A stretch of DNA of 64,000 nt from Deltaproteobacteria bacterium (GCA_020848745.1 JADLHM010000098.1:62001-126000); one strand, 5' to 3'. Positions 52,206 to 57,309 are shown, numbered from the stretch's first letter. The notes: generated by a model from the letters alone, not told the origin. Program-made: numbers and translations.

Positions 52206-53879
52206 TCATCCCTCCCGCGTGACCGTGCCCGCGCCCGCGTCGAGGACGAGGCGCTCGCCGTCGCGGAGGCGGCGGGTGGCGTCGAGCACCCCGACGAGCG
52301 CCGGGATGCCGAGTTCGCGAGCCACGATCGCTCCGTGCGAGAGGATGCCGCCGGCCTCGAGCACGAGACCGGCGGCGCGTTCGAGGACCGAGGTCCATCC
52401 CGGATCGGTGTAGACGGCGACGAGCACGTCGCCGGCGGCGACGCGCTCGAAGTCGCGTGGATCGCGGACGATCCGGGCCGGGCCGACGCAGCGTCCGGGC
52501 GCGCCGAGCTCGCCGGCGAGGACGCGGTCGTCGTTCGCGCCCACCCGCGCCGGCGGCGTCGCGACGTCGAGCGTCTCGGGCGGGGGGGCCGCCGCGTCGC
52601 GCGCCGCCGCCTCGCGCCGCGCCGCGATCCGCGCCGCGAGCGGAGCCGGATCGTCGAGGGCGAGCACGAGCTCTTCGACGTCGAGCCAGAAGACGTCGTC
52701 GGCGGCCGCGACCCTGCCGCGTGCGACGAGGGTCGCTCCGAGGGCGCGTACGACCTGGCGGAGTCGCGCGAGGAAGAAGTCGGCGTGATACCGCATGTTC
52801 TCGCGGAGCGCGTAGTAGCGCTGCGCGTAGTCGAGGAGCCAGCCGAACGCAGCGCGGCGGGCGGCGCCGGTCGGGCCTCCGCCGAAGGCGGCGAGGAAGC
52901 GCGCGGTCGCCGCGAGCCGGCGCTCGACCAACGCGGCGCGATCGAGCGCGGCGTCCGTCCCGGCGGCGAGCGCGAGCTCGACGACCATCGCGGGCGATTC
53001 GGCCCAGGTCGGGCACGAGAGGTCGCGGCCGGTCAGGCGATGCCCGTGCTGGTCGAGGAAGCGGCGAAACGCCCGCGCGGCGGCGCCGCCGTCGTCACGG
53101 AGGAGGAGCGCGGCGGCGGTCTCGAGGTCGTGGGCGGATACCGCGGCGCCGACACGCGGCTCGGCGCGGAACAGGCGCGCGAGCGTGTGGAGGTCGTAGT
53201 GCGCCTCCAGGGACGCGACGCCGGGGACGCCGACCGTGAGGGCCGCCAGATCCTCGGGACGCCCTGGCGCCCAGCGCCGGCCGAGCTCGTGCACGAGATG
53301 GAAGAAGACGTAGGCGAAGACCATCCCCCAGCTCACCACGTCGAGGAAGCGACCGAGACGCTCGGCGACGTGGACGAGCTCGTCGCGGAGGTTGCGCGGC
53401 GATGGTTCGGCGCCGAACGTGCCTCGGTTCTGGAACCCGCGCCGGACCTCGATGCACTCGCGGTCGAAGGCGGCGGCGCGCTCCCAGGGCGCCCAGGCGG
53501 GCTCGTTCCGCCAGGCACGCTCGGCGATCGCGAGCGCCCGGAGGCCGCCGCCGATCCACGACGCGCCCGATCCGAGCCCGGCGCGCGCGACGCCCGGAAG
53601 GAGGCCGAGAAGCCCCTCGCTGCGGAGCCCGGCGGGCAGGAGGCGGAGCGTCTCGGCGACGAGCGCCCCGTTCACGTAGACGTGGCTCGCGTGGTGCCGG
53701 AGCGCCGGCATCGCGGCGAGCGCGTCCAACCCCGCGGCTTGCAAGGGGCGGCGCATCATGTGCTCCGCCATCGGCTCCGCGAGGAGGGAATAGGTGAGCG
53801 GCGTCACCGGCCCGCTCCAGAGCTCGCTGGCGATCCGGCGCGTCCAGAGGGGTGGAGGAATGAGAAAGGTGCTTGACAT
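52206..53879 (-). CDS. PEP-utilizing enzyme mobile-domain protein, lacking ATP-grasp
   Basis: A 557-residue cytoplasmic protein. The C-terminal ~100 residues are the PEP-utilizing enzyme mobile domain with catalytic-type His in GGILSHGAIVARELGIPAL, as in PPDK, PEP synthase and rifampicin phosphotransferase. The N-terminal two thirds are helical (for instance LRENMRYHADFFLARLRQVV), and show neither the ATP-grasp nor the PEP-binding barrel. Phosphotransfer would therefore need a partner or has been lost. ATG 53879 overlaps the TTGACA of the divergent TetR promoter; a shared palindrome (53902-53915) implies joint control. Role unknown. Confidence 0.8.
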   Translation of the reverse strand: MSSTFLIPPPLWTRRIASELWSGPVTPLTYSLLAEPMAEHMMRRPLQAAGLDALAAMPALRHHASHVYVNGALVAETLRLLPAGLRSEGLLGLLPGVARAGLGSGASWIGGGLRALAIAERAWRNEPAWAPWERAAAFDRECIEVRRGFQNRGTFGAEPSPRNLRDELVHVAERLGRFLDVVSWGMVFAYVFFHLVHELGRRWAPGRPEDLAALTVGVPGVASLEAHYDLHTLARLFRAEPRVGAAVSAHDLETAAALLLRDDGGAAARAFRRFLDQHGHRLTGRDLSCPTWAESPAMVVELALAAGTDAALDRAALVERRLAATARFLAAFGGGPTGAARRAAFGWLLDYAQRYYALRENMRYHADFFLARLRQVVRALGATLVARGRVAAADDVFWLDVEELVLALDDPAPLAARIAARREAAARDAAAPPPETLDVATPPARVGANDDRVLAGELGAPGRCVGPARIVRDPRDFERVAAGDVLVAVYTDPGWTSVLERAAGLVLEAGGILSHGAIVARELGIPALVGVLDATRRLRDGERLVLDAGAGTVTREG

Positions 53880-53901
53880 TACAGGGTCATCCGCCTACTT
53901 C
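53873..53901 (+). promoter_or_regulatory. Sigma-70 promoter of the TetR operon
   Basis: Consensus -35 TTGACA (53873-53878), then 17 bases, then TACTTC (53896-53901) as a weak -10 box. The candidate operator begins at its 3' edge, so a bound repressor would block transcription start. Confidence 0.55.
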
Positions 53902-53915
53902 TGAACGGCCGTTCA
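53902..53915. promoter_or_regulatory. Candidate TetR operator, perfect 14-bp palindrome
   Basis: TGAACGGCCGTTCA is perfectly self-complementary. It lies downstream of the TetR gene's -10 box and about 23-36 bp upstream of the divergent PEP-mobile-domain ATG, the standard place for TetR autoregulation and control of the divergent gene. Confidence 0.75.
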
Positions 53916-53941
53916 TTTCTGAATTGAAGCTCACCAGCCCC

Positions 53942-54571
53942 ATGCCGACACGTACAGCGACCCTCGCCAACCTCGATGATCGGAGCCGGCAGGACCGCCG
54001 CCGCGCCCGCACCCGGAGCCGGCTCCTCGCGGCGGCCAAGCGGATGCTCGCGACCAAGGGATTCCACGGCACCAAGATCGCGGACATCGCGGCCGCCGCC
54101 GACGTCGGCACCGGCACGTTCTACCTGTACTTCCCCACCAAGGATGCGCTCTTCGCCGACCTCGTGCGCGAAACCGCGCTCGCCGCCAAGGAGGCGATGG
54201 ACGCCGCCAAGGCCGCGCACGCGAATCCGGTGGAGCGTGCCCGCGTCGGCGGCGAGACCTTCTTCCGGTTCGCCGCCGAGAACCGCGACGTCTTCAAGAT
54301 CCTCTTCGGCCACAGCGCGCATTTCAACGAGCTCTTGCGCGAGGTCCATCAGATCTTCGTGGCCGACATCGAGCAGGATTTCGCCGCCGGCGTCGCCGCC
54401 GGCGCGTTCCGCGACCTCCCCCCGGCGTTCGCCGCCCAGGCGATCGTCGGGTTGCTCACGCAAGTCGTGTCCTGGTGGATCGACCGCCGGGACGTCTCCA
54501 TCGAAGAGATCACGTCCATGACTCACCGCATGCTCACGCAGGGCACGACGGTGCAAGGAGAACACCCATGA
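53942..54571 (+). CDS. TetR-family repressor of the di-iron/WS-DGAT cluster
   Basis: A 209-residue TetR regulator. The helix-turn-helix spans about residues 18-65 (LLAAAKRMLATKGF, then KIADIAAAADVGTGTFYLYF), with a C-terminal ligand domain that resembles fatty-acid or xenobiotic sensing members, not further assignable. ATG 53942 (MPTRTATLAN) places the HTH normally; an earlier TTG 53873 would add 23 residues and lie inside the promoter. Its stop overlaps the di-iron gene start in ATGA (54568-54571), so the two are coupled. The palindrome upstream is its likely operator. Confidence 0.9.
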   Translation: MPTRTATLANLDDRSRQDRRRARTRSRLLAAAKRMLATKGFHGTKIADIAAAADVGTGTFYLYFPTKDALFADLVRETALAAKEAMDAAKAAHANPVERARVGGETFFRFAAENRDVFKILFGHSAHFNELLREVHQIFVADIEQDFAAGVAAGAFRDLPPAFAAQAIVGLLTQVVSWWIDRRDVSIEEITSMTHRMLTQGTTVQGEHP

Positions 54572-55566
54572 CCGAGCCCGCCGTCGCCGCGAGCGACCTC
54601 GACGCCGTCGAGGACTTCACCGAGCGCCTCTCGACCACCTTCGACACCTGCTACACGTGGTCGTACGACTCGTTCAAAGCCGGTCTCCGCGCCCTCTACG
54701 ACAAGGCCAAGCAGAATCAGTGGGACCAGGCGACCGCGCTCGACTGGTCGATCGACGTCGATCCCGAGGCCGAGAACCTTCCCGACATGAACAACCCGCT
54801 CTTCGGGACGCGCCTCTGGGCGAAGCTCACCGAGCGCGAGATCCGGAAGTTCCGCCAGGAGCAGCTCTCGTGGAGCCTCTCGCAGTTCCTGCACGGCGAG
54901 CAGGGGGCGCTCCTCGCGACCGCGCAGATCGTCGACGCGGTGCCGTGGATGGACGCCAAGTACTACGCAGCGACGCAGGTGATGGACGAGGCGCGCCACG
55001 TCGAGACCTACGACCACTACCTGCGCGACAAGGTCAAGAAGGAATACCCGATCAACCCGCACTTGAAGACGCTGCTCGACCAGATCCTCACCGACTCGCG
55101 CTGGGACATGAAGTACCTCGGCATGCAGATCCTGGTGGAAGGCCTCGCCATGGCGGCCTTCGGGCTCATGGAGAAGTTCTCGAACGAGCCGCTCTTGAAG
55201 CAGCTCACGCAGTACATCATGCGCGACGAGTCGCGCCACGTGGCATTCGGCGTGCTGTCCCTCGAGGGCGTGTACAAGGACTTCAACGAGCGCGAGCTCC
55301 GCGAGCGCGAGGAGTTCACCTACGAGGGCTGCCGCCTCATGCGCGACCGCCTCTACGCGGTGGAGGTGTGGCAGGAGATGGGGCTGCCGATCGAGGAGAC
55401 GCACCAGATCGTGATGCAGTCCGAGATCATGCGCGAGTTCCAGAAGATGCTGTTCTCGAAGGTGGTGCCGAACTGCAAACGGCTCGGGCTTCTCACCCCG
55501 TGGGTGCGCGAGCGGTTCCACGAGCTCGACATCCTGAAGTTCGAGCACGAAGAAGCGAGCGCGTAA
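54568..55566 (+). CDS. Ferritin-like di-iron protein, AurF/R2 type
   Basis: A 332-residue helical di-iron protein. The complete carboxylate-histidine ligand set is visible: Glu111 (LHGEQ), Glu141/His144 in DEARH, Glu191 (LVEGLA) and Glu221/His224 in DESRH. That is the E...ExxH...E...ExxH pattern of the AurF/ribonucleotide reductase R2 group. Enzymes of this fold oxygenate amines or reduce nucleotides; others are oxygen sensors or desaturase-like. Here the TetR coupling and the WS/DGAT neighbour suggest a lipid- or xenobiotic-linked oxidation (inference). No radical-carrying Tyr can be assigned. Confidence 0.88.
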   Translation: MTEPAVAASDLDAVEDFTERLSTTFDTCYTWSYDSFKAGLRALYDKAKQNQWDQATALDWSIDVDPEAENLPDMNNPLFGTRLWAKLTEREIRKFRQEQLSWSLSQFLHGEQGALLATAQIVDAVPWMDAKYYAATQVMDEARHVETYDHYLRDKVKKEYPINPHLKTLLDQILTDSRWDMKYLGMQILVEGLAMAAFGLMEKFSNEPLLKQLTQYIMRDESRHVAFGVLSLEGVYKDFNERELREREEFTYEGCRLMRDRLYAVEVWQEMGLPIEETHQIVMQSEIMREFQKMLFSKVVPNCKRLGLLTPWVRERFHELDILKFEHEEASA

Positions 55567-55625
55567 CACCCGTCGTGGCGAGCGTCGGGCTTGAGGTCTC
55601 CCGGCGACTCGGTAAGGTCGTACCC

Positions 55626-57095
55626 ATGAGCGTCGAGCAGCTCCGTGCGGCGGACGCGGCGTATTTCTACCTGGAGACGCCGAGCCAGCACATGCACGTG
55701 ACGGCGACCATGTTGTTCGAGCCGCCGGGCGTTCGCCTGCCGGACGGCGAGGCTCCCGACGCGCAGATGGTCGCCGCATCCACGGCCGAGCGCCTCGCGC
55801 GTCGCCTCGCGTCGGAGCCGACCTTTCGCAAGCGGCTCGTCGAGGCGCCGCTCACGATCACCCATCCCGCCTGGGTGCAGGCCTCCGAGTTCGATCTCCG
55901 CGACCACTTGCGTCTGGTGACGCTGCCGCCGCCGGGATCGCGCGAGCAGCTGCTGGAGCACGTCGGCCGCATCGCCGGCACGCCGCTCGCCCGCGAGCGG
56001 CCGCTCTGGGAGCTGTGGGCCCTGGCCGGAGTGGAAGGCGGCCTGGTGGGCATCGTGCTGAAGGTCCATCATTCCATGGTCGACGGCGTCTCCGGCGTCG
56101 AGCTCTTGGGACGCCTCTTCGCCGACGCCTACCTGAGCGGCGCGCCCGAGGCGCCCGCCGCCGGGCCGACCGAGCCGTCGCTCCCCGAGCTCGCCGCGTC
56201 GGTGCTATCGTCGGCGTTGGCGCTGCCGCTGCGGGTGTACCGCACGCTGGCGCGAACCGTTGCCGCTCTCGGACCCGTGATGCGCACCGCGATCGAGAAC
56301 GCCAATGCCGACGCGGCGCCGACGCTGCCGTTTTCGGCGCCGCGCACCCTCCTGAACCGGGCGCTCACCGCGGAGCGCCGGGTCGCGTTCGGAAGCGTGC
56401 CTCTCGCCGCGGTGAAGGAGGTGAAGGCCGCCTTCGGCGTGACGGTGAACGACGTGGTGCTCGCCGGCTCCGCGCTGGCGCTCGGCGAGTACCTGCGCGC
56501 GCACGGTGAAACGCCGGGCCGACCGCTGGTCGCCAGCGTGCCCGTCTCCGAGCACGGCGCCCCCGGGGCCGGGCCGGCGACCAACCGCGTCTCCGTGATG
56601 TTCGTCGGCCTGCCGGTGCACCTCACGCGCGTGGAGGACGTTCTGGCGTTCGTGCACGGGCAGACGAGCGGCGCCAAGAAGATCCACGGGTCGTTCGGCG
56701 CGACGATGCTCGCCGAATGGGTCGATCTCGCGCCGCCGGCGCTGTTCGCCGCGGCGATGGGGCTCTACTCGCGCTGGCGGCTCGCGGACCGCTTGCCGCC
56801 GCCCCATAGCGTGGTGATCTCGAACGTTCCGGGGCCGCCGTTCTCACTGTCGGTCGGGAACGCCCGGCTCGTCGCGGCATATCCGATCGGTCCCGTGCTC
56901 GAAGGTGCGGGCGTCAACATCAGCGTGGTGAGCTACATCGACACGATCCACGTCGGGTTGGCCACCTGCCCGCGCGCGGTGCCGGACCCGGCCAAGCTCG
57001 CCGAGGGCATCGTGCGCGCCGTAGGCGCCATGCAGGAGGCGGCGCGCCGCCCCCGGGATACGGAGCGCGTCCGTACCTCCGGAAGCGGCGCGTGA
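55626..57095 (+). CDS. Wax ester synthase/diacylglycerol acyltransferase
   Basis: A 489-residue WS/DGAT that esterifies fatty alcohols or diacylglycerol with acyl-CoA, making storage wax esters or triacylglycerol. The catalytic motif HHSMVDG lies at residues 148-154; the N-terminal signature MSVEQLRAADAAYFYLETPS and the C-terminal SNVPGPPFSLSVGNARL are present. Length is normal. It begins 59 bases after the di-iron gene and probably belongs to the same transcript. It ends only four bases before the convergent dodecin stop. Confidence 0.93.
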   Translation: MSVEQLRAADAAYFYLETPSQHMHVTATMLFEPPGVRLPDGEAPDAQMVAASTAERLARRLASEPTFRKRLVEAPLTITHPAWVQASEFDLRDHLRLVTLPPPGSREQLLEHVGRIAGTPLARERPLWELWALAGVEGGLVGIVLKVHHSMVDGVSGVELLGRLFADAYLSGAPEAPAAGPTEPSLPELAASVLSSALALPLRVYRTLARTVAALGPVMRTAIENANADAAPTLPFSAPRTLLNRALTAERRVAFGSVPLAAVKEVKAAFGVTVNDVVLAGSALALGEYLRAHGETPGRPLVASVPVSEHGAPGAGPATNRVSVMFVGLPVHLTRVEDVLAFVHGQTSGAKKIHGSFGATMLAEWVDLAPPALFAAAMGLYSRWRLADRLPPPHSVVISNVPGPPFSLSVGNARLVAAYPIGPVLEGAGVNISVVSYIDTIHVGLATCPRAVPDPAKLAEGIVRAVGAMQEAARRPRDTERVRTSGSGA

Positions 57096-57099
57096 TGCG

Positions 57100-57309
57100 C
57101 TAGTCCTCGTACTTGAAGGAGACCTTGACCTTCGCCCGGTAGAGGGTGACCTTGCCGTCCTCCACCGTCATGTCCAGTTGGACGATCTCGGCAACGCGGA
57201 GATCGCGCAGGGTCTTCGCGGCGCGCTCGACGGCGACCTTGGCCGCCTTCTCCCAGGAATCGGGGCTGGTGCCGACGAGCTCGATGATCTTGTACACGCT
57301 GTCCGCCAT
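57100..57309 (-). CDS. Dodecin flavin-binding protein
   Basis: A 69-residue dodecin. These form dodecameric hollow spheres that sequester FMN/FAD or riboflavin. Sequence features: YKIIELVGTSPDSWEKAA, the Trp that stacks on flavin, and LRVAEIVQLDMTVEDGKV ending in YRAKVKVSFKYED. Length is exactly typical. ATG 57309 has a strong GGAGGTG site. Convergent with WS/DGAT with four bases between stops. A flavin buffer next to a di-iron oxidase cluster is suggestive but unproven. Confidence 0.93.
   Translation of the reverse strand: MADSVYKIIELVGTSPDSWEKAAKVAVERAAKTLRDLRVAEIVQLDMTVEDGKVTLYRAKVKVSFKYED

Follow-up and report, generated by a model that had tools for sequence, protein, structure and literature searches.

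In the two-component dikinases to which HpeH, CreH and PpsA belong, a separate protein supplies the ATP-grasp domain; the swivel-domain histidine of HpeH is essential, and HpeH alone can move phosphate between phenol esters (PMC12167813). Among di-iron proteins, the N-oxygenases have a 3-His/4-carboxylate metal site that includes a third histidine ligand (PMC12101540; PMC6783550). Here we describe a locus at which a protein of HpeH-like architecture and a ferritin-like di-iron protein (FDO) are encoded on either side of a shared control region, together with a TetR-type regulator. The locus lies in a stretch of 64,000 nucleotides (G000:C98:62001-126000; hereafter the window, from whose first letter all positions are counted). 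The host bacterium, which is uncultured, belongs to the phylum Binatota, with its class taken as Binatia, and its 4.88-Mb genome (155 contigs) is 99.5% complete. The reading that we favour, as a whole with moderate confidence, is that a ligand-sensing repressor switches a di-iron oxygenase and an orphan phosphotransferase.

Four genes are concerned. A gene for a protein resembling rifampin phosphotransferase (RPH) occupies 52206-53879 on the minus strand (557 aa); diverging from it on the plus strand are tetR (53942-54571; 209 aa), the FDO gene (54568-55566; 332 aa) and a WS/DGAT gene (55626-57095; 489 aa). A preliminary description had presented a coupled run of TetR, di-iron and WS/DGAT genes. 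All of these are present, but only tetR and the FDO gene overlap (by 4 bp, ATGA), with a 59-bp gap before WS/DGAT. It had also named the divergent gene 'PEP-mobile' and begun the cluster too far to the right; the gene is there and runs left to 52206.

The gene order was compared in the window's own family (f1; six genomes in three genera, g1, g2 and g3, three of the genomes being from the window's genus g1) and in a sister family (f4; five genomes). The divergent RPH-like gene, tetR and the FDO gene keep their order in 6/6 f1 genomes from all three genera, and the proposal that the divergent gene shares a control region with tetR holds in each of these. In f4, tetR-FDO is found in 5/5 genomes, with neither the RPH-like gene nor WS/DGAT at the locus. 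WS/DGAT is present at the locus in 3/3 g1 genomes and absent from it in g2, g3 and f4. Conserved co-occurrence of all four genes is thus limited to the genus (three genomes), with three genes kept across the family (six genomes) and two in the sister family (five genomes). The core of the system is the two-gene tetR-FDO unit, and WS/DGAT is a genus-only addition downstream. Within the genus, all four genes are under purifying selection (dN/dS 0.09-0.35), which is strongest on FDO (0.09-0.11), followed by the RPH-like gene (0.16-0.20), tetR (0.19-0.32) and, weakest, WS/DGAT (0.28-0.35). A Gfo/Idh gene lies upstream of the locus in g1, in g3, in the g2 genome whose contig reaches that far and at three f4 loci.

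The tetR promoter has a -35 element, TTGACA (53873-53878, plus strand), which overlaps the RPH-like start codon (53877-53879). A likely -10 element, TACTTC (53896-53901, plus strand), follows after a 17-nt spacer; it was placed by alignment of the f1 promoters, in which its TA is conserved. TTGACA is at the same place in 6/6 f1 loci and in 4/5 f4 loci, there with slightly different spacing. A simple consensus scan left the tetR promoter unflagged because its -10 element is poor. Beyond the -10 element are two predicted operator boxes, TGAACGGCCGTTCA (box 1, 53902-53915) and, 18 bp from it and imperfect in the window, TGAATTGAAGCTCA (box 2, 53920-53933). Box 1 has the conserved form TGAAY-N4-RTTCA at 11/11 orthologous tetR promoters (six from f1, five from f4). 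When 367,813 bp of Binatota loci were scanned with this motif, there were 14 matches, comprising the 11 first boxes and 3 second boxes, all of them at the 11 tetR-FDO promoters. In the f1 promoters a further TGAA...TCA box lies at a distance of exactly 18 bp from the first, with the full motif in three loci (L067, L069 and L070). Since the half-sites are conserved across related loci, box 1 is beyond chance. The sequence TGAACGNNCGTTCA occurs once in the 4.88-Mb genome.

A perfect 14-bp operator had been claimed at this position. Its half-sites are conserved in all 11 promoters, but a perfect palindrome as the conserved operator was rejected: the CGGCCG core varies and only the half-sites, TGAA-N6-TTCA, are constrained. 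From the alignment, the perfection of the window's palindrome is partly coincidence. The TetR protein has TetR_N (58.0 bits) and TetR_C_24 (39.6 bits) domains, both above cut-off, and orthologues in f1 and f4. Both features of a local repressor, a helix-turn-helix domain and a conserved inverted repeat at its own promoter, are therefore present, and the TetR has a genuine, conserved predicted operator. The f1 boxes come after TTGACA-17-TAnnnn, a position in which TetR, once bound, would sit across the start of its own operon. Because the RPH-like start codon overlaps the -35 element, transcription of that gene must start within the operator or past it, and its co-regulation with tetR-FDO is likely. 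A wider regulon was also considered and set aside: genome-wide there was one further motif site (C35:3143, L181) and the reversed-pattern control also gave one, hence we treat the site as chance. TGAA-N6-TTCA was absent upstream of the FDO-linked TetRs in Actinobacteria.

The AF2 model of the RPH-like protein (pLDDT 86.5) could be aligned along its entire length with Listeria RPH (residues 323-867; Z 28.4 over 493 residues; Foldseek E ~1e-19), and PF00391 (79.5 bits) was the sole Pfam domain found. The earlier observation that the ATP-grasp domain is absent stands, with the alignment beginning only at RPH residue 323. The swivel histidine, His515, is preceded by Ser and is invariant in the 16 orthologues. 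The architecture of a two-component dikinase H component (a rifampin-binding-like domain plus a swivel domain with a conserved histidine, and no ATP-grasp) is present. By the model, the protein comprises the substrate-binding domain of RPH and its swivel domain, with ATP-grasp missing, and HpeH/CreH/PpsA-like component is a better name for it than 'PEP-mobile'. No stand-alone ATP-grasp partner was evident with PF01326 in the 16 genomes that carry the gene, where the matches were almost all long multi-domain proteins; this applies apart from a few short frames of 160, 266 and 308 codons in draft genomes, and a partner outside PF01326 is possible. In three of the genomes (G095, G096 and G097) the PF01326 matches fall in a single long PPDK-looking gene.

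FDO scores 42.8 bits against the Pfam AurF model PF11583, above the cut-off of 29.6. In an alignment of 94 homologues, the ligands E111, E141, H144, E191, E221 and H224 are invariant in 94/94, and so are D140 and D220. The site of the third AurF histidine (217, four residues before the last ligand glutamate) is V, I or T in every homologue, and I217 in the window protein. The elements of a 2-His/4-carboxylate site (E, ExxH, E, ExxH in a four-helix bundle) are present. The helical model (pLDDT 87.6) matches R2-like ligand-binding oxidases (R2lox), RNR R2, AurF and aldehyde-deformylating oxygenases (ADO) at Z 21-23; with such near ties, the fold does not choose among them. Against the NCBIfam R2lox equivalog model, FDO falls below the cut-off (30.3 bits versus 194). 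As judged from its ligands, FDO belongs to the 2-His/4-carboxylate oxidase or hydroxylase type rather than to the AurF-type N-oxygenases, and is probably catalytically active. The preliminary description was right that all six ligands are kept, but the seventh, which marks AurF, is gone; 'AurF-type' in a functional sense must be dropped, and assaying amine N-oxygenation would not be the obvious experiment to begin with.

The FDO family is large, with at least 568 encoded relatives, of which the annotated members are called only 'ferritin-like'. In Binatota it is multi-copy and, in parts of the class, strongly expanded: one genome (G078) has as many as 11 matches at E ≤ 1e-10. The contexts of the paralogues in the window's own genome were considered as a guide to function and gave no consistent theme: neighbours include MdoG and an ABC transporter in one case, and radical SAM, aldo-keto reductase and acyl-CoA dehydrogenase genes and a C-terminal piece of WS/DGAT in another. 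On a Rhodococcus opacus plasmid (NZ_CP082159.1, L186, 5387-9438), a 47%-identical relative is flanked by genes for a molybdopterin-dependent oxidoreductase and the ferredoxin FdxA, a possible electron-donor context. On a plasmid of Streptomyces sp. NBC_00536 (NZ_CP107820.1, L189, 1-12921), a 37%-identical relative lies in an acyl-activation/carrier-protein cluster with AMP-binding enzymes, carrier proteins, a PaaI thioesterase, an acyl-CoA dehydrogenase and an anthranilate-synthase-like gene, which looks like an uncharacterised biosynthetic cluster. Together, the contexts of these annotated relatives hint that ferredoxin may drive the oxidation of substrates bound as acyl groups or to a carrier. 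Three records in the FDO tree that are titled 'Bifidobacterium breve' (L109, CAMAYJ010000001.1; L112, CAMDCC010000047.1; L159, CAMDLK010000020.1) cluster with Acidimicrobiia, and their titles look wrong.

The model that we propose takes the gene layout, the conserved operator, the ligand set, the RPH-type architecture without ATP-grasp and the purifying selection from the sequence, and we infer from them the repression, its ligand, both reactions, the co-regulation of the divergent gene and the phosphoryl donor. A TetR dimer bound at the TGAA-N6-TTCA boxes, which cover the start region of the tetR promoter, would keep the tetR-FDO operon off in an act of self-repression; the divergent phosphotransferase gene, which starts in the same control region, would probably be repressed too. 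A small molecule, for which our guesses are a fatty acid, an acyl-CoA or an aromatic compound, would release TetR. FDO would then activate O2 at its 2-His/4-carboxylate site and oxidise the inducer molecule or a derivative of it. The HpeH/CreH/PpsA-like protein would bind a small hydroxylated substrate and pass a phosphoryl group to or from it via His515; the donor of that group would come in trans or be another phosphorylated metabolite. In this genus, WS/DGAT has been added downstream. A bolder form of the model, which we consider unlikely, is that the dikinase component has permanently lost its ATP-grasp partner and become an orphan phosphotransferase, charged in trans or from substrate to substrate, and that TetR co-controls it with an uncharacterised class of 2-His/4-carboxylate di-iron oxygenase in a new Binatota pathway of oxidation and phosphorylation.

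Several observations weigh against the model. In another Binatota family, f14 (10 genomes; L078-L085, L088 and L089), the RPH-like gene has a constant neighbourhood of a different kind, with methylmalonyl-CoA mutase, HEAT-repeat, NUDIX and FtsH-type genes and with neither FDO nor TetR beside it, which suggests that the protein need not act with FDO. Beyond Binatota, a scan of the genome collection gave 80 loci, and the counts from these refer to the matches listed and include related genomes. A TetR gene is immediately upstream of the FDO homologue in 42/75 loci (34 on the same strand, 8 divergent) versus 19/589 for other genes. The pairing is wide in Actinobacteria, with other TetRs, and in many Acidimicrobiia the pair precedes apparent dapA, ribonuclease J and ftsK genes (read from protein N-termini). 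That these are orthologous TetR-FDO pairs across phyla was rejected: FDO-adjacent TetRs fit the Binatota TetR profile no better than other nearby TetRs do (Mann-Whitney p = 0.77). On a quick FDO tree, the adjacency changed at least 21 times. By these comparisons the pairing recurs while the regulators change, and it may thus come from a tendency common to TetRs in general, not from one pathway that these loci share. As for the ligand, an acyl compound is weakly suggested by the best NCBIfam match of the window TetR, FadR, which at 53.8 bits is far below the curated equivalog cut-off of 200; an aromatic ligand would be a guess by analogy with HpeH and CreH.

One alternative is a looser linkage, in which TetR controls itself and FDO, and the RPH-like gene is independent; its promoter would by chance abut that of tetR, and it would have a function unconnected with theirs and perhaps a kinase partner encoded far away. 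The f14 neighbourhood and the f4 loci that have tetR-FDO without the RPH-like gene speak for it. Nevertheless, the divergent layout over the operator is kept in all six f1 genomes and three genera, despite RPH-like proteins of only ~50% identity and differing outer flanks, and the RPH-like start codon overlaps or nearly abuts the tetR -35 element. We therefore see this alternative as possible, though on the less probable side.

The preliminary description went further in the other direction and drew all four genes into one integrated pathway, with FDO oxidising a lipid or xenobiotic inducer, WS/DGAT storing the product as wax ester or triacylglycerol and the PEP-mobile protein as an accessory. 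The WS/DGAT protein itself keeps the marks of its family: it scores 404 bits against TIGR02946 (cut-off 310), has the HHxxxDG motif as HHSMVDG and matches 6chj/7nxg in the PDB. The four genes are together under one operator in the three genomes of the genus, all under purifying selection. However, the other two f1 genera have no WS/DGAT at the locus, its nearest relatives there being on other contigs with at most 48% identity, and f4 has none at the locus either, so that the storage step hangs on a gene whose presence there is limited to one genus. It is also set apart by its 59-bp gap, is the least conserved of the four by dN/dS, and none of the 80 loci elsewhere, among the matches listed, has an FDO-WS/DGAT neighbourhood. 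An oxidation-and-storage system is accordingly weak and unsupported beyond one genus, and we think it quite improbable. That FDO is an AurF/CmlI-type N-oxygenase acting on amines is very improbable, since the Pfam AurF score and the match to AurF 3chh (Z 21.2, with an alignment that at 275 residues is longer than any other among the matches listed) are offset by R2lox and RNR R2 scores that are equal or higher and by V, I or T in 94/94 homologues where the N-oxygenases have their third histidine.

Two sets of neighbours lie beyond WS/DGAT. A convergent dodecin gene (57100-57309, minus strand) follows it directly and keeps this position in 3/3 genomes of the genus. Beside the locus, genes for a class III CoA-transferase and a cytochrome P450 (58268-60744, minus strand) share one orientation.

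Each of the four proteins is in a known superfamily. In the literature searched, we found no paper that joins TetR, di-iron, RPH-like and WS/DGAT functions and none on the function of the FDO family; nor did we find there a description of a widespread pairing of TetR with a 2-His/4-carboxylate 'AurF-like' protein, or of an apparently partnerless HpeH-like component tied to TetR-FDO. The conserved operator and local regulator offer a direct handle on the inducer of FDO, and hence on its substrate. The orphan RPH-like protein raises the question of where a swivel phosphotransferase gets its phosphoryl group when it has no ATP-grasp partner, which is testable for the recently recognised two-component dikinases.

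Set against the closest known systems, the TetR, FDO and the RPH-like protein each show likenesses and differences. The TetR resembles the FadR-type regulators of fatty acid metabolism, with a 'fatty acid metabolism regulator protein' (3whb) also among its PDB matches, but it is far under the equivalog cut-off and the similarity is common to many TetRs. FDO shares with R2lox, RNR R2 and ADO the 2-His/4-carboxylate set in a four-helix bundle, at 12-19% identity. With the N-oxygenases AurF, AzoC and CmlI it shares the Pfam family, the fold and six of the seven ligands, and the Asp before each ExxH glutamate as in AurF (D135/D226), but lacks their third histidine. The RPH-like protein has the fold of residues 323-867 of Listeria RPH (5hv1/5fbt) at 21% identity, without the whole ATP-grasp domain and with 124.6 bits against the single-chain RPH model, whose cut-off is 999. 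Compared with the HpeHI, CreHI and PpsAB dikinases, a likeness of architecture rather than of sequence alignment, it has the same layout as the H/A component, and its candidate catalytic histidine has a preceding Ser as in CreH and phenylphosphate synthase (PMC12167813); unlike theirs, its gene has no adjoining ATP-grasp gene and sits with tetR and FDO.

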